DNA of 41,472 bases from Dysgonamonadaceae bacterium. GTDB lineage: Bacteria > Bacteroidota > Bacteroidia > Bacteroidales > Azobacteroidaceae. This document shows, in pieces, positions 16,336-40,287 of this stretch. Under the pieces are notes generated by a model. That model saw only the letters and a list, made by a program, of their open reading frames with translations, was not told the DNA's origin and made no database searches. The stretch is taken from NCBI GenBank assembly GCA_031257875.1, contig JAIRNV010000161.1, positions 1 to 41,472 on the forward strand. Direction: 5' to 3'. Both the position numbers and the translations under genes were made by a program. Each line of letters begins with the position of its first letter. Position 1 is the first letter of the stretch.

Positions 16336-16368
16336 TCACTCATAGCCTTTATAAGCATTCAGTCGTAT
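16336..16368 (-). repeat. Direct repeat, copy 1 (nfnA-like 3' end, island/nfnB border)
   Basis: tcactcatagcctttataagcattcagtcgtat; 27/33 identical to 19741-19773. Confidence 0.8.
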
Positions 16369-17100
16369 ATGATTTGTTGTTGCTGCATAAGCCGCAACTT
16401 TGTTTTTTTCGGAAAAATCGAGAATTTTCTCAGTAAACAATGGGATTTTTTTTACCATTGTTTGCTCAAATTCAATATTGTTTTTTTCTGTATGATATTC
16501 AATCTCTTTTGGTATAGCTACACCTTTCTTTAAACTTGTTTTCTGGTAATCTATTGAACGAACAGGATTTGGAATATTAAAATATTGTTGTAAAGTTTCC
16601 CAGTCATTGTTACGAATCGTTACAATATCACGCAAATAGAAACTTACCCAACTTTCACCAATTTTGAAGTTTGGAACGACTTGTTCTAATTTTTCCTGCG
16701 AAATATCTGAATATTTTTTGTCTAATTCAAAACCGATATAATTTCTACCTAACCTTTTTGCTGAAATTGCAGTTGTTCCTGTACCCGAAAATGGGTCTAA
16801 AACAATATCATTTTTATCTGTTGTCATCAAAATCAGTCTATCCATCAAGTGCAAAGGCAGCTGGCAAGGGTGCGGGTCGCGTTTTGAATTGTGTTTAATT
16901 CTATGAATATCTGTCCAAACATCAGAAATCAGGGGTCCAAAAGGGTGTAATCCGTCTTTCTTTCCGCCGTAATCTTTCCATAAATAACCTTGTTTGCGGT
17001 CGCGTTTATGTGGATGGCGGAGTTCGTATATTTTTGCACCTTTCGCTTCTTTTGTGTAAAACAAAATGCCGTAATGCCCCGGTTGCAAGGATTTTCCCAT
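16336..17100 (-). pseudogene. DNA methyltransferase (N4/N6, beta-type order), N-terminally truncated; C-terminal codons resemble the nfnA 3' end
   Basis: KNDIVLDPFSGTGTTAISAKRLGRNYIGFELDKKYSDIS is a motif X/I region, but no DPPY/SPPY motif is present N-terminally. Ends ...HIRLNAYKGYE*. Confidence 0.65.
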
Positions 17101-17108
17101 CCTTGTAT

Positions 17109-17333
17109 TTATTCATATAGGTTCTCAAACTTATTGGATAAAACATTTGGACTTATATCTCCCCCATCGGAATTAAAAGTCTCATTGTTGAACTCATCTG
17201 CAACCCAAACGTAATGCTCAATTCCTCGAATTGAGATTTTCATTGGGACTAAATGAACGCCTGTTGAAAAAATTCTCGGTTGTCGTTCTGCAAATTGATA
17301 ATCTAATAATATCTGCTCTGTTTTTAAACTCAT
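17109..17333 (-). CDS. Small hypothetical protein in R-M island
   Basis: 74 aa ORF on the same strand as its neighbours. Confidence 0.45.
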   Translation of the reverse strand: MSLKTEQILLDYQFAERQPRIFSTGVHLVPMKISIRGIEHYVWVADEFNNETFNSDGGDISPNVLSNKFENLYE

Positions 17334-17339
17334 AATTTT

Positions 17340-17906
17340 TTAATCTTTATTTGGTGCTTTATATAAACAATTCCACACACTTTGATTTTGCCATATTTCT
17401 ATAACACTATCGTGCCATTCTTCGTCGTCAGGATTTTGAATCAAGTGTTCTACTAATTTATTCAATGGTGTCGGAAATTTCAATTGAAGTTTTGGTAAAA
17501 ATTTCAAAGTTGAGCCTTTTGAAATCCGTTTTGTATATTTCATCCATTCGTTGAGATTGGCAATAAATTCGTCATCTGCCGAAAATTGCATTTGCTTTTT
17601 CAGAAATGGAAATCCTTTAACCATTACGACATAATTTTGTGGTACTAATACGAAATATATCCAATAATCTCTTTCAAAGAACAGTTTATCAATTCCGATT
17701 GTACTGCTTATAGCAATCCAATTAAAAGAATTTTGCATCGTTTTGACTTCGATTTTCCTCACTTCGCCATCTTTATTAGTTGATAATCCATTAAAACCTG
17801 ACGTTTTCTTAACAAGTTGAATATTGCAACCCTTAAAAGTTTCCACAGAGCAGGCTAAACCTACTCCTACTTTTTCTAATGCATTCGGGTGTGATATTTC
17901 TGCCAT
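17340..17906 (-). CDS. Putative restriction endonuclease-like / DUF3883-like nuclease-fold protein
   Basis: GLSTNKDGEVRKIEVKTM resembles a PD-(D/E)xK catalytic core (xIEVK); located between methyltransferase genes. Confidence 0.5.
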   Translation of the reverse strand: MAEISHPNALEKVGVGLACSVETFKGCNIQLVKKTSGFNGLSTNKDGEVRKIEVKTMQNSFNWIAISSTIGIDKLFFERDYWIYFVLVPQNYVVMVKGFPFLKKQMQFSADDEFIANLNEWMKYTKRISKGSTLKFLPKLQLKFPTPLNKLVEHLIQNPDDEEWHDSVIEIWQNQSVWNCLYKAPNKD

Positions 17907-17909
17907 ATT

Positions 17910-19169
17910 TTATGCTGCTATTTTATTGCTATCAAAACATTTATATTCATCTTTCATTGTATTTCGCATACCTTTAATGGGTTTCAGAATACTTTTAACT
18001 AATGGCAAACTGTATTTCTTTGCAGAATCAATAATCGTTTGTTCTAATCGTATTCCGCCTGTTTGGTTGGTATTTGAGCCAATAATCATTGCAAAATACT
18101 TGTCTTTTTTGAGAACACGCGAGATTTCAGCACAAACTTTGTCCATATCCGCAAAATAATTATTAAGTCGTTCGGTTTTGTTTTTTCCTTTTAGTCCAAT
18201 TAAATTTGCTTTCAATTCTTTTGTATTGTATCCCAAAAATTCAAGTTGGTCTTTGTCGTTTTCAACATAATCTATTGCAAATGAATACGGCGGTGAAGTA
18301 ATTACACAATTGATACTTTCATTTGGCAAGTCAATTTTCAACGCTTCGGAATTGCTTAAAATCGTGGTTTTACCCATTTCGCTTTGCTTGAAATAAGGAT
18401 TTTTCAAAGTTGATTTTACCGTTTCAATGTATCGCGGCAATACTTTTGCAAAAAGTTGTTCGTGATTTGAACGTACAACACGCTTTGAATATCCCAAAGC
18501 ATCTAACCAGGCAAGAAAAGCAAGGTTATACATCTTCTGTTTTTCAATATCTTTTACCTCTAATATGCGTTTCGGAACGTTGCCATGTTTGAAGAAATCG
18601 AACAGTTTTTTGTTGTCGAATGGCGTTTTTTCTAACAAATCCACATCAATTGTCAAAGATTCGTATTTCACTTTTATCATAAACTGGCAAAACAGACTGA
18701 CATCAACAGCATACGAATTAATACCCATCAAAGCCGCTTCCACATTAGCAGTCCCACTGCCCGCCATCGGGTCTAAAACTGTTTCATTTTTTTCAATGCC
18801 CAAAATATTGAATAATCCTTTTATTAGTTGTGGGTGAAATTTGCCGCGATACGGGAAAAGTCCGTGCGTGGCATAACCTGTCGAAAATTGTCCTTCTTCA
18901 AAATATGCCTGCGTTTGTGAAGAACGATTTTCGTTGATTGTCTCGTTGTAATTTGAATAAAGCAAGTAATGATTTGTCGGCTTATTGTCAATAGATTTGA
19001 CAAATGCAGAGCGTTCCAGAAGTTGCCCTTTGGTTAAGCAATTAAATTCCAAGTAAGCCATCTCAATCTCGAACATCTCATCAACGCTCGGCAAAAGTTC
19101 AATGTTTTTGCCGAAGGTTGCGGAAACGAACGAGGGGAGATTATAAAACTGCTTATTCATTTTGCCCAT
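17910..19169 (-). CDS. DNA methyltransferase
   Basis: HGLFPYRGKFHPQLIKGL, ETVLDPMAGSGTANVEAALMG, CVITSPPYSFAIDYVE. Confidence 0.9.
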   Translation of the reverse strand: MGKMNKQFYNLPSFVSATFGKNIELLPSVDEMFEIEMAYLEFNCLTKGQLLERSAFVKSIDNKPTNHYLLYSNYNETINENRSSQTQAYFEEGQFSTGYATHGLFPYRGKFHPQLIKGLFNILGIEKNETVLDPMAGSGTANVEAALMGINSYAVDVSLFCQFMIKVKYESLTIDVDLLEKTPFDNKKLFDFFKHGNVPKRILEVKDIEKQKMYNLAFLAWLDALGYSKRVVRSNHEQLFAKVLPRYIETVKSTLKNPYFKQSEMGKTTILSNSEALKIDLPNESINCVITSPPYSFAIDYVENDKDQLEFLGYNTKELKANLIGLKGKNKTERLNNYFADMDKVCAEISRVLKKDKYFAMIIGSNTNQTGGIRLEQTIIDSAKKYSLPLVKSILKPIKGMRNTMKDEYKCFDSNKIAA

Positions 19170-19740: not shown

Positions 19741-19773
19741 TCACTCGTAGTCTTTGTAAGCATTCAAGCGCAT
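19741..19773 (-). repeat. Direct repeat, copy 2 (3' end of nfnA-like gene)
   Basis: tcactcgtagtctttgtaagcattcaagcgcat, encoding MRLNAYKDYE*. Confidence 0.8.
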
Positions 19774-20532
19774 CAGCATTTCGTCAAAATTGACCTGATG
19801 CGCGTCAAATTCAGGCCCGTCTACACACACAAAGCGGGTTTTCCCGCCGACCGTGACGCGACAGGCGCCGCACATTCCCGTTCCGTCTACCATTATCGTA
19901 TTCAGTGAAGCGACCGTAGGAATTTCATATTTCCCTGTCAATAAAGAAACGAATTTCATCATGACAGCCGGGCCTATCGTTACGCACAAATCAACTTTTT
20001 CGCGATTGATAATCTGCTCAACGCCAAGAGTAACCAGCCCTTTTTGCCCGTAAGAACCGTCGTCGGTCATTATCATTACTTCGTCGGCAAAACTTCTCAT
20101 TTCCTTTTCCAAAATAATCAACCCCTCGGTTCGCGCGGCCAAAACGACAATCACTTTATTTCCCGCCCGTTTCATGGCGCGGGCAATCGGATACATGGGA
20201 GCGGTTCCCACGCCGCCGCAGGCACACACAACCGTACCGAAGCGTTCAATATGAGTAGATCTTCCCAAAGGGCCTACCAAATCGTCGATATACTCGCCTT
20301 CATTGAGGGCGCAAATTTTCCGGGATGATTTTCCTACCTGTTGAATGATTAAAGTAATCGTTCCGTTTTGAATATCCGAATCGGCGATCGTCAAAGGGAT
20401 ACGTTCTCCGAATTTTCCTATTTTCAGGATAACGAAATGTCCGGGTTTTCCGGACTTTGCAATCAACGGGGCTTCAACCGCAAATCGAACCACGTTTTCG
20501 GAGAGAATTTCTTTTTTAATAATTTTATTCAT
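19741..20532 (-). CDS. nfnA: NfnA-like ferredoxin-NADP reductase subunit (sulfide dehydrogenase alpha-type FAD/NAD-binding)
   Basis: GHFVILKIGKFGERIPLTIAD, VVCACGGVGTAPMYPIARAMK, VDGTGMCGACRVTVGGKTRFVCVDGPEFDAHQVNFDEML. Confidence 0.88.
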   Translation of the reverse strand: MNKIIKKEILSENVVRFAVEAPLIAKSGKPGHFVILKIGKFGERIPLTIADSDIQNGTITLIIQQVGKSSRKICALNEGEYIDDLVGPLGRSTHIERFGTVVCACGGVGTAPMYPIARAMKRAGNKVIVVLAARTEGLIILEKEMRSFADEVMIMTDDGSYGQKGLVTLGVEQIINREKVDLCVTIGPAVMMKFVSLLTGKYEIPTVASLNTIMVDGTGMCGACRVTVGGKTRFVCVDGPEFDAHQVNFDEMLMRLNAYKDYE

Positions 20533-20661: not shown

Positions 20662-20671
20662 GGGGGGGGGG
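20662..20671. repeat. G10 homopolymer tract (intergenic)
   Basis: acaaaGGGGGGGGGGcttcc. Confidence 0.85.
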
Positions 20672-24078: not shown

Positions 24079-24090
24079 CCCCCCCCCCCC
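24079..24090. repeat. C12 homopolymer tract immediately 3' of the TonB receptor stop
   Basis: tgaacctCCCCCCCCCCCCaaaaaa (the two C at 24076-24077 are separated by a T). Confidence 0.85.
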
Positions 24091-26134: not shown

Positions 26135-27235
26135 CTAATTTTGCCTTTGCCGCTTTTTTTCCCTCCTTCCTTCAGCAGATCTGGTAGCGTCTTTTTGTCG
26201 GCCGGCTTCCATTTCGGCTATTTCTTCTTCAAGCACCGTAATTTCTTTATTCGCTCCGGTTGTTTCCTTCGGTTTTCCTGTTATGGAAAAATCAAACTTA
26301 TAAACGCCTTCACTTAATAAAGAAACTCCAATTGTATTTCTGCCGTAAGCATCTAAATGGAGCCTTTGAACAGGTTGTCCGTCAGGAACATTCAACCTTT
26401 GTCTTAAATATTTGCCCATTTCGGCATAATGGGCAAATGAGCCAACTTGTTTTGGATATATTACATTATCAATTGTTTGATTACCAAAAAATAATCCATC
26501 CATACAAACACCGTCGTCCCATATTATTTCAATGCTATCATTGTGACGGCGCATTCTTCCCCGACCGTCAAGTTTAGTAGGATTGACCTGTTTTGGCAGG
26601 AATAATTTCGGATAATTTTTAATATCCTGTGTCCTGATTTTTATATATGAATCATTTGCATTTGTATGATTGGCAGGATTTTGTCCCCAATTTAATCCGG
26701 CTGCATTTTGAACTTCGCCATTTGGACCCAATAAAGATAACAGACATTCGGATTCTACCGTAGTTATCTGTTCAATGGTTTGTGTTGAATCTAATTCCAA
26801 ACATGAAACAGAATTGTTCAATACCTTTTGAATATATTTGTTTAAAGGCTCAAAGGTGTCATGAGTTGTTTCAGCAAGAATTTCACGGTACGGAGTTGTA
26901 AGTCCACTCTTGGAAAAATTGGCGGAACCAATGAGTGCATGAACAATTTGCCCTTTACTGCGCCACACATAGCATTTTGAATGTACCGGTAAATTTGAAT
27001 AAAAAATATTCACAGAGTCGATAGCGTTCTGAATATCAATCAATGAATTATGCAAAGGCCGTTTAATTCCTTCTTCTCCATACATCCCGTAAATTATTTT
27101 GGAATGAAAAGGAAGGTATTGTAACCGTTCAATCGGTTTTGGTCCGACATAGCCTGAAAGCACAATAAACTCATCGGATTCAAACATCTCGTGCCGGTGA
27201 AAAATAATTTCTTCTAAATTTTCAGTATATAGCAT
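26135..27235 (-). CDS. PLD-superfamily (NgoFVII-type) restriction endonuclease
   Basis: Single HxK motif VHSKCYVWRSKGQIVHALIGSANFSKSGL; adjacent to two methyltransferases. Confidence 0.75.
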   Translation of the reverse strand: MLYTENLEEIIFHRHEMFESDEFIVLSGYVGPKPIERLQYLPFHSKIIYGMYGEEGIKRPLHNSLIDIQNAIDSVNIFYSNLPVHSKCYVWRSKGQIVHALIGSANFSKSGLTTPYREILAETTHDTFEPLNKYIQKVLNNSVSCLELDSTQTIEQITTVESECLLSLLGPNGEVQNAAGLNWGQNPANHTNANDSYIKIRTQDIKNYPKLFLPKQVNPTKLDGRGRMRRHNDSIEIIWDDGVCMDGLFFGNQTIDNVIYPKQVGSFAHYAEMGKYLRQRLNVPDGQPVQRLHLDAYGRNTIGVSLLSEGVYKFDFSITGKPKETTGANKEITVLEEEIAEMEAGRQKDATRSAEGRREKKRQRQN

Positions 27236-27236
27236 A

Positions 27237-28343
27237 TTATTTATTGTTCACAAAAATAATACTATGCTCCTTTTTAGGGGCATTTGAAAATTTTTTATTA
27301 AAAGAACGGGTTATATCAGACAGATTAACACTCTCAATGCTTTGAATTTTATAATTTGAATTTTGACACATTTCAGCGATAACTTGACTCATATCAATTG
27401 TAATTCCGTCTACAATTCCATCGCCAATTATCATAACAAATATCGAATTTGGTTTAGACACTCTTGATAATTCATTCATAATCTTTGCCATAGAATCAAC
27501 ATATTCGTCCTTTGCCGCCGTAAAATCTTTAGTGTCAATGCGGTGGTGATTCCCGATTTCTTTTTGGCGAACAGGCTTGTGGTTGTAATCCATCCAAAAC
27601 ATTCTCAATTTATGGTATAAATAATAATCAAAAGTGTTGATGTATGGCGGCGAAGTCATTATGAAATCAAAATAATTATCAGCAAATTGTTTCAATTCTA
27701 TCAATGTATCTCCATTAAAAATTTTTGCTTTTGCTAAAATAGAATACTCATTCGATTTTAAGATTTCAACATAATTTAAAAGCGTTTCTATGAATAAGTT
27801 GTAAACTGTTCCATTCGGATGGTTTTTATTCTTTGCCGTATACCTGACTTCACTGTCTTGATTGGAAACTTTTACAATAATTTTTGAAAAAGCGCATAAG
27901 AGCAAATCTTTTACATTACTGTTTTCTACTAAATTAATTTTTGTTTTTAAATTTGCTAATTCTATGCAAACATTATCTTGAAACCAATGACTTCTATTTG
28001 GGAAATCGGGAATTGAAACATTCAAGGAGGCATTAGCGTTTAGCGTTCGTATTTGTTTGATTATTTTATCAACAAGTTGAATATCAGTTTCTTTGTAGTC
28101 ATTCGACTTCGCTTTTGAAATAATATAAGCGATAGGGTTCAAGTCTATTCCTACCGAATTTATCCCGTTGATAACGCTTTCCACAACAGTAGTTCCGCTT
28201 CCACAGAAAGGATCAAGAATTTCATATCCTTCCCTGCAAAACAGATTTAGATATTTGTTTACAAGCTGTGGCGTATATTTTGCAGGATAAGGATGAAATC
28301 CATGTGTAAAATAAGTTGTACTTTTTTGTTGATTATTTGTCAT
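27237..28343 (-). CDS. DNA methyltransferase
   Basis: THGFHPYPAKYTPQLVNKYL, YEILDPFCGSGTTVVESVI, FIMTSPPYINTFDYYLYHKLRMFW. Confidence 0.92.
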   Translation of the reverse strand: MTNNQQKSTTYFTHGFHPYPAKYTPQLVNKYLNLFCREGYEILDPFCGSGTTVVESVINGINSVGIDLNPIAYIISKAKSNDYKETDIQLVDKIIKQIRTLNANASLNVSIPDFPNRSHWFQDNVCIELANLKTKINLVENSNVKDLLLCAFSKIIVKVSNQDSEVRYTAKNKNHPNGTVYNLFIETLLNYVEILKSNEYSILAKAKIFNGDTLIELKQFADNYFDFIMTSPPYINTFDYYLYHKLRMFWMDYNHKPVRQKEIGNHHRIDTKDFTAAKDEYVDSMAKIMNELSRVSKPNSIFVMIIGDGIVDGITIDMSQVIAEMCQNSNYKIQSIESVNLSDITRSFNKKFSNAPKKEHSIIFVNNK

Positions 28344-29302
28344 TTGAATTTCTCTCCACTCATATTTTTTCTAAAAACTACAATAAATGAATGCCCTATA
28401 TTGAAATAATATCTTCTTGATTTATTTCCCCCTAACCGTACTAATTTTCTTTGATTTGATTGATCCCATATAATTAAATCCCACAATATCCATCCGGATT
28501 CTGTTGCAACTTTGGTCAAATCTCCATGTAAATTAATATACGGCAAACTGTTATCCAAATCACGATAATCCCTCACTACCCAAACGTTATATGCTCCCTG
28601 TTTTGCAATTCTATGTAAAGAATCAAATAGTTTTTTCATTTCCGACAAATAATCTTCATAAGATAAATTTCCCATATCTTCTTCCGAAACCGAATATGGT
28701 TTTGCCAATTTTCTACTTTGATTTTTGTATGGATTATTTTTATAATCTTTGTCGGCAAAATTATCTCTAATTTTGTTCAGCAAATTTGCGTAAGGAGGCG
28801 AAGTTAATATGAAATCAACAGAATTTCCCGACAGCAACCGTTCAATTTCTAAGGCCGAACATTGAAATATATTTCTTTGGTAATCAAAATTTTGAATCCC
28901 ATCTTTCACGTCAATCCCTTTGTTGAACAGGTTAATAAAATCCGGATTTAATTCAATGCCCAAAGAATGCCGTTTTAAGATATTTGCAGCATCCAGGGTT
29001 GTCCCGACCCCTGCGAACGGGTCTAAAACCGTGTCACCTTCTTTTGAATAAATTTCTATAAAATGTTTTGCCAAAGATAACGGAAATGCCGCCCCATGTT
29101 TTTTCCGTTTTTCTGTAATGCCGCCATTAAAAATTTGAACGCTTTTACCGTGCAGGGTCCACTCGCTACCCGTTAAGTTATTGAGGTCGTGAATACCTGC
29201 TTTTGCTGCCTTTTTCTCAACTGTTTCTTCGTTAAAAAGACGGAGCTGTTCATAGTCAGACAACAAAAGTACCTGTAACTCTTCCGGTTTGTATTGGGCC
29301 AT
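28340..29302 (-). CDS. DNA methyltransferase
   Basis: DTVLDPFAGVGTTLDAANILKRHSLGIELN, VDFILTSPPYANLLNKI; overlaps the next gene by 4 bp. Confidence 0.92.
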   Translation of the reverse strand: MAQYKPEELQVLLLSDYEQLRLFNEETVEKKAAKAGIHDLNNLTGSEWTLHGKSVQIFNGGITEKRKKHGAAFPLSLAKHFIEIYSKEGDTVLDPFAGVGTTLDAANILKRHSLGIELNPDFINLFNKGIDVKDGIQNFDYQRNIFQCSALEIERLLSGNSVDFILTSPPYANLLNKIRDNFADKDYKNNPYKNQSRKLAKPYSVSEEDMGNLSYEDYLSEMKKLFDSLHRIAKQGAYNVWVVRDYRDLDNSLPYINLHGDLTKVATESGWILWDLIIWDQSNQRKLVRLGGNKSRRYYFNIGHSFIVVFRKNMSGEKFK

Positions 29303-33611: not shown

Positions 33612-33668
33612 ATTCAAATTGCAAGACCTGTCATTCCCGCCTGCACGGGAATGACAGGTCTTGCAAGA
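33612..33668. repeat. Palindromic element (TTGCAAGACCTGTCATTCCCG CCTGCA CGGGAATGACAGGTCTTGCAA)
   Basis: About 21-bp perfect arms around a 6-nt loop. Confidence 0.85.
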
Positions 33669-33723
33669 GCATTGTGATTTGAAATCCCCCATTATATCTT
33701 CTTTCATTTATCTTTTTGCGCTG

Positions 33724-33819: not shown

Positions 33820-33918
33820 CAGGATAAATTGCATTGTTAATGATAAAAATGATGCAAATTTGTTTCTGTTGAAACAAAATGAAAGAAATTATGTTGTTTT
33901 AATTTAATGTAAAAATTT

Positions 33919-36900
33919 ATGAAAAGATTCTCTTTTTGGCTAACATGCTTATTCGTAAGCATTTGCTTAGCGGGGGGGGGCAATTCAGTAGTTGCACAAA
34001 CCCGTTCCGTGTCGGGCGTTGTGCTGGATGAAGCCGGCGACCCCGTTATTGGAGCTACTGTAGCAGTAACCGGTATTCCTTCCATCGGTATTGCAACTGA
34101 TCTAAAAGGAACATTTACACTCTCTGTTCCTGTCGACGCTAAAACACTTACTGTTTCTTATGTCGGTATGCATTCGCAGACCGTAACTGTTGCGCCAAGC
34201 GTGCATGTAATCCTGAAAACAGATGCACAGGTATTGGACGATGTGATTGTAGTAGCTTACGGAACGGCGCTGAAACGCAGCTATACCGGCTCGGCGCAGA
34301 CCGTTACGGCGAAACAGTTTGAAAAACGCCCGTTGATGAATATCACAAACGCCATCGAAGGGAATGTGCTGGGCGTTCAAACTACTTCTTCATTAGGACA
34401 ACCCGGCGAATCAGCCGCTTTACGTATTCGCGGCTTCGGGTCTGTCAACGCATCAAATGCCCCTTTAATTATTCTGGACGGAGCAATTTACAATGGAGCT
34501 TTGTCAAGCGTCAATATGTCGGATATCGAAAGTTATTCGATTTTGAAAGATGCAAACGCTACGGCTCTTTATGGCTCCAGTGCGGGAAACGGGGTATTGA
34601 TTCTTACCTCGAAAAAGGGGACAGGCGACGGGAAAGTCAACTTGACCGTTTCACAGGGATTTTCCGAACGCGCTTATGCCGATTACGCACGGGTGAATGC
34701 ATTTGATTATTTCCCGCTTCAATGGCAAATGCGGAAAAATGCTTATATCACAGCCGGAAACACACCTGAAGATGCAGCGGCAAAAGCATCGGCCGAAATA
34801 GTTTCTACCTTGAAATACAATCCTTTCTCAGGTATTGCCGACGGGGATGTCGTATTGTCGAACGGCTTGCTCAATCCCGATGCTACCCAATTGAAATGGG
34901 GCGACGACCTGGACTGGGAAGGCGCCGCTTACCGGAGAGGTTATCGCCGGCAGTATGACCTGAATTACAGTTCGGCTTCGGAAAAAAGCAATACCTATTC
35001 GTCTGTCGGTTACGTGAATGAAGAAGGTTACATGATTAAAACCGGCATGGAACGCTTCAGCGCTCGCCTGAATCATAATATTCATCCGGTGAAATGGTTT
35101 AAAAGCGGATTGAATGTATCGGCCAGCCGCAATATCTCCAATTATTCTACTGCCGAGTCGGGCAGTTCTTCTGCCTACAACAACCTGGCGCGCTATGTCC
35201 GTACCATAGCGCCCATTTATCCGGTTCACAAACATGACTTGCAAACAGGAGATTATCTGAATGCCGACGGAAATCCCACCACCGACCCGGCTCAATATGT
35301 TTACGACTACGAGGGCGCCCGCCTGTCCAGTAACGGACGGGACGCTGTTGCGGAAACGGAATTTAATCTGCGCCGTTATGCACGGACAATGACTACAGGC
35401 CGCACCTACATCACATTAATCCCGGTAAAAGGACTGGATATTACCGCTAATTACGGTATGGATAATGTGGATTACCGTATGAAACGCTACGAAAATCCCC
35501 TGGTGGGCGATGGTACGGCAGGCCCCGGACGGCTGAGTCAAAGCGCTACCCGTTCGCTGACGCAAACATTCAACCAGATTGCCAGATACGAATTTATTCC
35601 GGCCGTCAATCATGCCCTCAAAGTAATGCTCGGACACGAAAGTTACGATTATCAGTATGAATATATTTACGGTATGAAAACAGCCGAGACGGTACCGAAT
35701 GTATATGACTGGGAAAATTTTTCAAACACCAGTTCATTATCATCCTACACCGATACTTACCGGAAAGAAGGTTATCTGGCTCAACTGGATTATAATTTCC
35801 TTGAAAAATATTATTTGTCGGCTACTTACCGTCGGGATGGAAGTTCCCGTTTCAAACCGGAATACCGGTGGGGTGATTTCTATTCTGCGGGCGTGTCCTG
35901 GCGATTGAACGAGGAGGATTTTATCCGTCAATTCGCTTGGATTGATAATCTGAAACTGAGAGTTTCCTATGGCGAAACCGGTAACGACCAACTCCTCGAC
36001 AGCGACGGCTATGCTTTATATTATCCCTGGCAAACGCTTTATCGGTTAGGAAATGCCAACAGTTCCGAACTGGGCGCTTATTTTGAAAATATGGCGAATG
36101 CAAATTTGAAATGGGAAACACAAATCAGTTCGGATATCGCTCTTGAGTTTGGCATTTTCAACCGTTTGACCGGAACGCTGGAATTTTTTCAGAAAAAATC
36201 GAAAGACTTGCTGTTTGATGTATCCCAACCGACGTCAACAGGTATCGCTTCAATCAATAATAATATTGGCGACGTTGTTAATAAAGGCGTCGAACTGGGT
36301 TTGGATTTTACTTTCCTGAAAACGAAAGGCTGGACAGGTTCAATGGGAATAAATGCTACATGGCTGAAGAATGAAATTAAACACTTGCCCGACGAAATGC
36401 GTGAAAACGGGCATATCGACGGCAGTAAAAAATGGATGGAAGGCTACAGCCGTTACGAATTTTGGCTCAGGCAATGGTATGGCGTAGATCCGGCCAGCGG
36501 AAACGGTTTATATTATCTGGATACCGAAAAATATAATGAAAAAGACGCAACGTTGACCGACGCTATTAAAAACACCATTGTAGAACTTGATGGAAAAACA
36601 TTGACCAACAATTATTCGTATGCCGAATTTGATTATAGCGGGTCGTCTATTCCTAAATTATACGGAGGATTTAATTTCAATCTGGGATACAAAAACTTTT
36701 CTTTGCAGGCCGTTTTTTCATATTCTTTGGGTTCTAAAGTATTGGATACAAGTTATGCCGATTTAATGAGTACCGGCGAGTATGGTTATGCCATGCATAC
36801 GGATGTTAAAAACGCCTGGCAAAAGGAAGGGGATATTACTACCGTTCCCCGTTTGGATGTTACAGCCACTCATAACACCAATATCAATCAGTCTTATTCT

Positions 36901-37235: not shown

Positions 37236-38732
37236 ATGAAACAGTTTAAATATATTCTATTAGGCATGGCAATTGTCGGAACATTCAGTCTGACAGGTTG
37301 CTCGGAAGATTTTTTGGATACGGTTCCGACCGAATCGGTTTCGGCGGGAACCGTTTCGGAAACTTTAGACGGTTTGTATAACGCCCTGAACGGGATTCAC
37401 CGCAATATGGTTTCCCAGTTTTTGGGTAATCAGGGAATGGGAGGCGAACCGGGATTTATGATTTGCCGTGAAGCGGAAGGCGATGATTTTATCTGGGATA
37501 CGCAAGCATGGCATCAAACCTATTTGCAATGGGCGCCCAATAAAAGTGAAACTTCGGCTTACAATGCCGGCTTTTGGCGAACCTATTACCAGTTTATCCT
37601 GAATGCCAACCTGATTTTGGAAGGACTGGAAAAGAATTTTGCCGGTTCGTCCGAACCGATGGCAAAATATATTAAAGGGGAAGCCCTCTGTATCCGTGCA
37701 TGGGCGCATTTCAATCTGGTACAGCTCTATGCCAAACGCTACGGGGCTTCCGCCGATAATTCGCATGACGGCGTTCCCTATCGGGAATCGTCGGAAACCG
37801 TACCCATGTCCCGTCATTCGGTATCCGATGTGTACCGGAAAATAAATGCGGATTTGGATAATGCGGTTACTTTATTAGACGGATACGAGCCGTATGATGT
37901 AACCCATTATTCCCGGGCGGCGGCTTATGGCTTAAAAGCCCGCGTTACACTTGCACAGCAGGACTATGCCGCAGCAGCCGGGGCTGCCGTTGCCGCTATC
38001 GATGCGGCTGAAGCGTCCGGGGCCAGGTTGATGACAAAAGACCAGTTGATGCACGGCTTCGCAGATATTACTTCGAAAACCGGCGAAGCCATGTATGCCG
38101 CAAAAACTTTGAATGACCAGACGGTATATTTCTACTCGTTTTATGCTTACATGGGATGGAATTTCAATTCTGCCTCCAACCGTACAGGTATCAAATGTAT
38201 CAGTTCCACGACCTACGATTTGATGTCGGCTACCGATTTGCGCCGGCAGTGGTGGGACCCTGCCGGCACAGCCGCAGTTCCCGCTTCCAGCTATAATAAA
38301 CGGCCCTATCAACACCGTAAATTTACGGCACGTTCTACGGCCGATCCTGTGGGCGATGTAGCTTTTATGCGCCTTTCGGAAATGTACCTCACGGCGGCGG
38401 AAGCATACGCCCGGTCGGGCAACGACGCTTTGGCCAGACAATACCTGAACAGGTTTGTAGCGGAACGCGACCCGGAATATACCGGTTCGGGCAATACCGG
38501 CGCGGCACTGGCCGAAGAAGTGATGAATCATCGCCGTATCGAACTTTGGGGCGAAGGTTTCCGCTGGTTCGACCTGAAGCGCCTGCATCTGGATGTACAC
38601 CGTACGGGAACAAACTACAATGTCATCTTTGCCGGCTTCCTTGATAAGGATAAAGACGCTCAGGAATGGGTTTATGAAATCCCGAAGGCGGAGACCGATT
38701 ATAATCCTTTATGTACTAAGAATTATAAATAA
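37236..38732 (+). CDS. SusD/RagB-family nutrient-binding outer membrane lipoprotein
   Basis: GTFSLTGCSEDFLDTVPTESV, AEALCIRAWAHFNLVQLYAKRYG, EVMNHRRIELWGEGFRWFDLKRLHL. Confidence 0.96.
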   Translation: MKQFKYILLGMAIVGTFSLTGCSEDFLDTVPTESVSAGTVSETLDGLYNALNGIHRNMVSQFLGNQGMGGEPGFMICREAEGDDFIWDTQAWHQTYLQWAPNKSETSAYNAGFWRTYYQFILNANLILEGLEKNFAGSSEPMAKYIKGEALCIRAWAHFNLVQLYAKRYGASADNSHDGVPYRESSETVPMSRHSVSDVYRKINADLDNAVTLLDGYEPYDVTHYSRAAAYGLKARVTLAQQDYAAAAGAAVAAIDAAEASGARLMTKDQLMHGFADITSKTGEAMYAAKTLNDQTVYFYSFYAYMGWNFNSASNRTGIKCISSTTYDLMSATDLRRQWWDPAGTAAVPASSYNKRPYQHRKFTARSTADPVGDVAFMRLSEMYLTAAEAYARSGNDALARQYLNRFVAERDPEYTGSGNTGAALAEEVMNHRRIELWGEGFRWFDLKRLHLDVHRTGTNYNVIFAGFLDKDKDAQEWVYEIPKAETDYNPLCTKNYK

Positions 38733-38986: not shown

Positions 38987-39054
38987 AATTGCGCTTGCGC
39001 TTGGTAATCCCACGATTTTCATGTAATTTTGCAGCGAATTTTTATAAAAAAATA

Positions 39055-40287
39055 ATGAAAATGAAAAAAATGATGATTCCCCTGCTGCTGTTGATAGCGG
39101 CGGGATGTAGCAACGAAACGCCTGAACAGCCTATCAGGAAAGGGTATCTTGTGCAGGCGGAAGAGGTGAGGACGGTAAACAGTGAAATGCTAAAAAGCTT
39201 TCTTATCACTCAGGAGGAGTACAGGCAATTTGCAGAGTTCCTGCAAAATGATGTACGCCTGATTCGCGTAACATATACTACGGAATATCCGAAGGGAACA
39301 GCCATCAATGTATCCGGCGCCCTCTTGATTTCCGAAAATTACGACGCCGCTTTCCCGACCGTAGTCTATAATCACGGTACTAATGCCAACCGCGAAAGTG
39401 CGCCGTCGACAGATATTGCCGAACTGTCTTCTCTGGATGCGGTTTTAGGCATTGTGATAGCATCGGCATTCAACTGCGCCCTGTTGCTTCCCGATTACAT
39501 CGGCTACGGCGAGAGTAAATCAACTGCGCATCCCTACGTACACGTGGAATCACTGGGGCAAACCGGACTGGATTTCCTCCGCGCTTTCAGGAAATATATG
39601 GCAAGCCCTGAAGTTGACCGGCCGGTCAGCGACCGGGTTTTTATCACCGGATATTCCGAAGGCGGCACTGCGGCGCTTGCCGTGCACAAAGCCATAGACG
39701 ATCACCCGGAAGAAGGATTGACAGTAGCCGGAAATGTAGCCGGATCCGGCGTCTACGACATGGTAGCGGCTTGCAAGGCATTTGTCGACAATCCGAATCC
39801 CCTGGAACCGCAGATGCTGTCGAGTTACCTGTGGGTGCTGGGAATGTATAAAAAGGATTTCGGGTATTCAAAAGACTATGCGGATATTTTTTCGGAAGAG
39901 GATAACGACTCACTGCAATCTATCGACTACGACCTTACCTATTTCCGGAGCGTAACCGAAAACCTGCAGCTTAACAACATTGCCGCCCAATTGTTCCAGC
40001 CTGCCTTTATCGACGGCGTACGGAACGAAACGGATACCGAGTTTATCCGTATTTCTCAACAAAATTCTTTAGTCGATTTTGCCCCGAAAGACAGTTTGAT
40101 ACTGGTGTACGGCGCCGCCGACAACTGGGTGCATCCGGTCAATTCAATAAATGCACACCGCGCAATGCTGGAGAAAGGCTGTAAGGTAGGATACTACGTG
40201 CATCCCACCGGCGATCACTCTTCTACCATCCCCTTATACATGGGTGTATTACTGGACTGGCTTTCTAAATTAGTGAATAATGATTAG
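39055..40287 (+). CDS. Secreted lipoprotein alpha/beta hydrolase (lipase/prolyl-peptidase-like)
   Basis: Start at MKMKKMMIPLLLLIAAGCSNE with a lipobox; nucleophile elbow ITGYSEGGTAALAVH; C-terminal HPTGDHSS. Confidence 0.85.
   Translation: MKMKKMMIPLLLLIAAGCSNETPEQPIRKGYLVQAEEVRTVNSEMLKSFLITQEEYRQFAEFLQNDVRLIRVTYTTEYPKGTAINVSGALLISENYDAAFPTVVYNHGTNANRESAPSTDIAELSSLDAVLGIVIASAFNCALLLPDYIGYGESKSTAHPYVHVESLGQTGLDFLRAFRKYMASPEVDRPVSDRVFITGYSEGGTAALAVHKAIDDHPEEGLTVAGNVAGSGVYDMVAACKAFVDNPNPLEPQMLSSYLWVLGMYKKDFGYSKDYADIFSEEDNDSLQSIDYDLTYFRSVTENLQLNNIAAQLFQPAFIDGVRNETDTEFIRISQQNSLVDFAPKDSLILVYGAADNWVHPVNSINAHRAMLEKGCKVGYYVHPTGDHSSTIPLYMGVLLDWLSKLVNND

Follow-up and report, generated by a model that had tools for sequence, protein, structure and literature searches.

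The susC Locus and Its Signal Peptide

The window, that is, the whole stretch of 41,472 nucleotides that was analyzed, corresponded to contig C11 of a 2.83-Mb Bacteroidales MAG assembled in 234 contigs. It harbored a susC gene encoding a SusC/RagA-type TonB-dependent transporter (Table 1), whose product presented the PF13715 (CarboxypepD_reg), PF07715 (plug), and PF00593 (TonB barrel) domains and matched TIGR04056 with 692 bits, exceeding the curated cut-off of 368. The match was full-length, including the N-terminal CarboxypepD_reg-like domain, the plug, and the barrel, and the adjacent susD gene expected for a transporter of this family was found downstream. An alpha/beta hydrolase gene is probably the third gene of the locus, and a GAPDH gene was placed 5′ of susC on the opposite strand. 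The perfect inverted repeat located between the GAPDH gene and susC, of which no second copy was found in the loci compared, is probably a terminator hairpin. Methylase-related genes were also observed in other regions of the window.

Table 1. Coordinates of the susC locus and of other features of the window.
Feature	Position	Strand	Remarks
Methylase pieces	16336-19169		
G10 tract	20662-20671		~130 bp upstream of the minus-strand oxidoreductase-like ORF 19741-20532
C12 tract	24079-24090		between converging gene ends, a few bases 3′ of the stop codon of an 801-aa CarboxypepD_reg/plug protein gene
Restriction-modification cluster	26135-29302	-	NgoFVII-like endonuclease and two N6_N4 methylase-family genes
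Inverted repeat, perfect, 21 bp	33619-33666		6-nt loop
susC, SusC/RagA-type TonB-dependent transporter, 1074 aa	33919..37143	+	in frame (ON) as assembled
Signal-peptide coding region, MKRFSFWLTCLFVSICLAGGGNSVVAQ	33919..33999	+	direct sequence
Internal out-of-frame ATG	33945..33947	+	putative start; 8 G would open a 1065-aa frame (MLIRKHLLSGGGNSVVAQ...)
G9 tract, proposed slippage switch, susC codons 18-21	33972..33980	+	direct sequence
susD, partner lipoprotein	37236..38732	+	92 nt 3′ of susC; SusD-like_3, SusD_RagB
Alpha/beta hydrolase, secretory-lipase-like	38989..40287	+	PF03583, PF00326

The signal peptide of the 1074-aa ORF included a run of nine G residues, read as gcG GGG GGG GGc, whose location and codons had been given exactly in a preliminary description of this DNA. 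The distance of 51 nt from the ATG reported there was correct to a base or two, the run beginning at base 54 of the ORF. Cleavage of the signal peptide is predicted near VVA-Q on the basis of the alignment, in which the orthologs likewise presented -AQ at this site. It had also been claimed that a one-base slip would frameshift the receptor, and translation from the same ATG confirmed it, since products of 36, 23, and 37 aa were obtained with 7, 8, and 10 G, respectively, against 1074 aa with 9 G. The full-length frame was open at 9 G and closed at 7, 8, 10, and 11 G, so that, by translation only, a change of one unit would abolish or alter expression, as expected for a contingency locus. The frame that 8 G would open from the internal ATG lacked the hydrophobic signal core.

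Length Distribution of G/C Runs

In the window, G/C runs were found up to length 6 and then at lengths 9, 10, and 12, with no lengths between 6 and 9. Counted over both strands, the source genome had 45 runs of length 7 and only 13 of length 8, but lengths of 9 and above accounted for 51 runs, including 20 of length 9 and 14 of length 10. A/T runs presented a smooth decay with length in the tract-centred stretches of the source genome that were sampled. The congener G005 displayed 53 runs of exactly 7, 38 of exactly 8, and 67 of at least 9, and the corresponding counts were 8, 2, and 2 in the congener G006, whose susC ortholog has no tract. Tract-rich genomes were only some of 39 relatives, indicating that tract abundance is a trait of particular genomes. 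The preliminary description had cited the G10 and C12 runs of the window as evidence that long runs are tolerated in this genome; both runs were present, but the wording understated the observation, since the long G/C runs constitute, in some genomes of the genus, a distinct length class that is often found in surface genes. Tract lengths assembled in metagenome bins carry some error.

Loss of mutS was considered as the cause of the tracts and rejected, since MutS was intact and full length in the genomes checked, including the source genome.

The presence of G9 in the susC signal peptide is not a product of chance. The tract is longer than chance predicts, as is characteristic of contingency loci, and a signal-peptide tract was found in 2 of the 21 SusC starts of the source genome, when only 0.028 was expected (Poisson P 4e-4). 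Moreover, GGG corresponded to 13% of Gly codon use in the window genes, and the other Gly-Gly-Gly runs counted in these genes were encoded by mixed codons or by GGC only.

Orthologs at the Tract Site

The closest ortholog found, 87% identical, came from a metagenome bin of a Dysgonamonadaceae bacterium (L162) and was 9 nt shorter at the tract site, reading ATG GGG ATA TCA where the window reads GCG GGG GGG GGC AAT TCA. This ortholog suggests that the source is a Bacteroidales member related to Dysgonomonadaceae, which may come from an insect gut. Six residues were missing at the same site in a 69% identical ortholog (L074), and no glycine run was found there in a 54% identical one (L075). Since none of the three harbored Gly-Gly-Gly, this segment is not a conserved feature of the protein. 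The possibility, considered in the preliminary description, that homologs would encode the glycines by mixed codons did not hold, the nearest orthologs having no Gly-Gly-Gly at all. By these comparisons, the poly-G tract is a recent gain of the source lineage, acquired as an in-frame segment that plausibly grew out of a few adjacent G residues.

Among the other SusC homologs with a readable start, no G/C run of 6 or more was found around the signal peptide. Long runs were observed at other positions relative to SusC genes: a G10 at a contig edge, ~260 nt upstream, in Proteiniphilum sp. X52 (L163), a G11 ~320 nt upstream in Tannerella forsythia (L206), and a G13 inside the gene, past the start of the plug region, in Phocaeicola abscessus CCUG 55929 (L197, 3692), in which the deposited gene is out of frame.

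Tracts in Other SusC Signal Peptides

The preliminary description had proposed searching further SusC signal peptides for long G/C runs, and this search was strongly positive. A second SusC of the source genome (C91; L050 8848-11970) carried a C15 run encoding Pro5 at the corresponding position of its signal peptide. The largest set was found in G005, in which 15 of 33 SusC starts presented a tract, located 43-55 nt ahead of the mature domain, against an expectation of 0.05, a comparison in which P is only indicative because the tract-bearing genes are paralogs. The run was of G on the coding strand in every case. When copies at contig edges were included, at least 19 SusC starts of G005 carried G9-G13 in the signal peptide, and these 19 comprised 12 in-frame, 6 out-of-frame, and 1 unreadable copy; an additional SusC tract, a G8, was found at C53:14042. 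Most of the tract-bearing starts shared the arrangement hydrophobic core - GGG - (V/A)(Q/N)xLRAE - PQxxKIAVxG. Since the G005 receptors compared with the window SusC were only about 28-33% identical to it and the nearer orthologs of the window gene have no tract, the two cases are best read, from these sequence relationships, as separate gains.

Three SusC signal-peptide tracts, all in frame, were found in the congener G010, so that G005 and G010 together harbored at least 22 SusC genes with pure poly-G at the equivalent place, and one more signal-peptide tract was found in the congener G002. In G030, which belongs to another family, there were two signal-peptide tracts, likewise of pure poly-G at the equivalent place, one in frame and the other out of frame, and a third SusC tract in the N-terminal domain, also out of frame. 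Different lengths among homologous copies, with both ON and OFF states, were therefore found for the class and not for the window gene. Within the genus, SusC matches to the tract pattern occurred in 4 of 38 genomes, and true matches to the strict pattern among 393 genomes across the order were found only in the source genome and G030; these counts are lower bounds, since the strict pattern misses C-runs and divergent SusC starts. Two other matches (G319:C72 and G011:C38) looked like chance by sequence and were left out of the counts. The congener G003 (1.2 Mb, 5 contigs) had no SusC match, yet presented 19 G/C runs of at least 9.

Other Tracts of the Source Genome

Outside the susC family, tracts were found inside genes encoding FkbM methyltransferases, a GT2 glycosyltransferase, an NAD-dependent epimerase, a PMT-like transferase, a CDP-alcohol transferase/HAD protein, and a BspA-LRR/cadherin-like surface protein, and several tract-bearing ORFs would be lengthened by one base more or less. 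A C9 tract interrupted a DUF6044 gene (G000:C60; L045 6014-6022), leaving two ORFs that covered the consecutive model positions 6-121 and 133-563, and in near-identical repeats the tract length was 12 in one copy and 10 in another. Moreover, a glycan cluster (G000:C231; L072 5803-7915) that included an FkbM-like methyltransferase, a glycosyltransferase, and unnamed genes carried three long G/C tracts in a 2.2-kb span, one of its genes being apparently out of frame.

About a third of the tracts (17 of 52) had no evident switch position by automatic classification, which is rough; for instance, the window G10 was assigned to a spurious ORF and was read instead as intergenic. Neither this G10 nor the C12 of the window is a signal-peptide tract. 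The C12 is not at an obvious switch position, and the G10 could exert a promoter-region effect or be neutral. Another G10 (G000:C16; L031 7473-7482) was found at codon 633 of a 646-aa dnaK ORF, in which one-base changes alter only the last few residues.

Proposed Slipped-Strand Switching and Alternative Explanations

Surface variation in Bacteroidales is thought to depend mainly on DNA inversion. The best explanation for the results described above is that the window susC follows another route than the inversion-based SusC/SusD variation of Bacteroides, with the G9 tract acting as a slipped-strand ON/OFF contingency switch, to which we attribute a probability of roughly 80%. The observed parts of such a switch are the tract itself, its effect on the frame, its non-randomness, its recent gain, its recurrence, and the existence of out-of-frame relatives. 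By replication slippage, the G9 tract would gain or lose a G in some cells, so that tract length would vary from cell to cell in the species, and the change would be reversible. A tract of 9 G, or one of 6 or 12, would allow SusC to be made, with A-Gly-Gly-Gly-N-S-V-V-A as the carboxyl part of its signal peptide; a single added or missing base would stop translation within 23-37 codons, leaving the outer membrane without the receptor, and expression of the SusD partner would probably be lost by polarity. Cells would then differ at random in the SusC/SusD importer displayed, and the selective reason may be that OFF cells, although losing a nutrient route, would keep a surface protein out of reach of phages, immunity, or competitors. 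The slipped-strand control of a SusC raised in the preliminary description is thus supported by the frame effect, the recurrence, and the out-of-frame copies, from which we infer the switching itself. Some observations count against it: nine residues place the tract among the shorter G-tract switches, few genomes have the design (G030 besides the source genome among 393 across the order, and 4 of 38 in the genus), and there are tracts away from plausible switch positions. A literature search of titles and abstract starts retrieved no report of slipped-strand SusC control, which is weak evidence of absence.

The tract could instead be a neutral by-product, arising in a lineage where G/C runs can lengthen because of the way its DNA is replicated or repaired, and in a signal peptide that tolerates three glycines. 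The 17 tracts with no clear role, including the one at 24079 between convergent genes and the one at the dnaK end, as well as the small number of tract-rich genomes within the genus, would be compatible with this origin. It is nevertheless unlikely, given that SusC signal-peptide tracts are far above chance, that the design recurs across distinct SusC lineages and extends to a second family, that tracts occur in surface-glycan genes, that MutS is present, and that A/T runs show no comparable excess. Homopolymers are also able to cause transcriptional slippage in general, and slippage of the polymerase or the ribosome on the poly-G could generate a fixed mixture of in-frame and out-of-frame products that tunes SusC output with no change in DNA. 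The G005 copies are mostly in frame, as expected if DNA length is kept, but the tract lengths of the paralogs differ (9-13) and several of them are out of frame in the DNA, making such RNA-level tuning very unlikely.

That G9 derives from a sequencing or assembly error in the metagenome bin, the true gene having another length or being tract-free, was judged highly improbable. Homopolymer lengths can be misreported in metagenome bins, and the assembly of some contigs stops at a tract, as in C40; however, the susC frame is open precisely at the assembled length and the genome harbors 51 tracts, so that at most the exact length of G9 is doubtful. Promoter inversion as in Bacteroides fragilis SusC/SusD, in which case the G-tract would be incidental, was considered very improbable from the inverted repeats seen upstream of susC. 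An imperfect 16-nt inverted pair (33694-33709 / 33877-33892) flanks 167 nt upstream of susC, but it is AT-rich with an 88% match between its arms, no counterpart was found upstream of the ortholog with 87% identity, and the sole perfect inverted repeat is the hairpin with the 6-nt loop. No good invertible segment was seen upstream of susC, where this weak AT-rich pair was the only candidate.

Slipped-strand switching may also extend beyond the window gene. With moderate confidence, we propose that in some members of the genus poly-G slippage occurs in many SusC signal peptides, with an independent switch for each paralog that shuffles receptors genome-wide and a tract gained repeatedly at the same place. 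Since each paralog would be switched independently, one clone may display very many receptor combinations. If true, slippage would act directly on SusC, in many paralogs, and would have arisen more than once, allowing an independent and reversible choice of nutrient importers and of possible phage receptors.

Comparison with Known Systems

In Neisseria meningitidis, poly-G tracts within the ORFs of hmbR and hpuA switch haemoglobin receptors (PMC3786947, PMC3352162). The likeness to the window gene includes the function in outer-membrane nutrient uptake, HmbR being a TonB-dependent receptor and HpuA the lipoprotein partner of HpuB, and a poly-G of similar length in the ORF that determines ON/OFF expression by frameshift. 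However, switching was documented across isolates in Neisseria and is here proposed from sequence, and the Neisseria receptors take up haemoglobin, not glycans. In addition, the tract described here lies in a SusC-family signal peptide of Bacteroidales, and one relative has ~20 such genes.

The phase variation of Bacteroides fragilis SusC/SusD by DNA inversion (Nakayama-Imaohji 2009, cited in PMC11868660) involves, as far as that citation describes it, the same protein families and likewise leads to SusC/SusD importers being displayed at random. The Bacteroides fragilis system relies on a site-specific invertase that flips a DNA segment, whereas strand slippage within the coding sequence is proposed here.

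Simple-sequence-repeat contingency loci are known for surface genes of Campylobacter, Helicobacter, and Neisseria (reviewed in PMC11868660), in which long G/C tracts likewise occur in glycosyltransferase, methyltransferase, and similar genes, and in-frame and out-of-frame copies are found in one genome. The present case differs from them in belonging to another phylum and in having SusC transporters as a main target class in some genomes.
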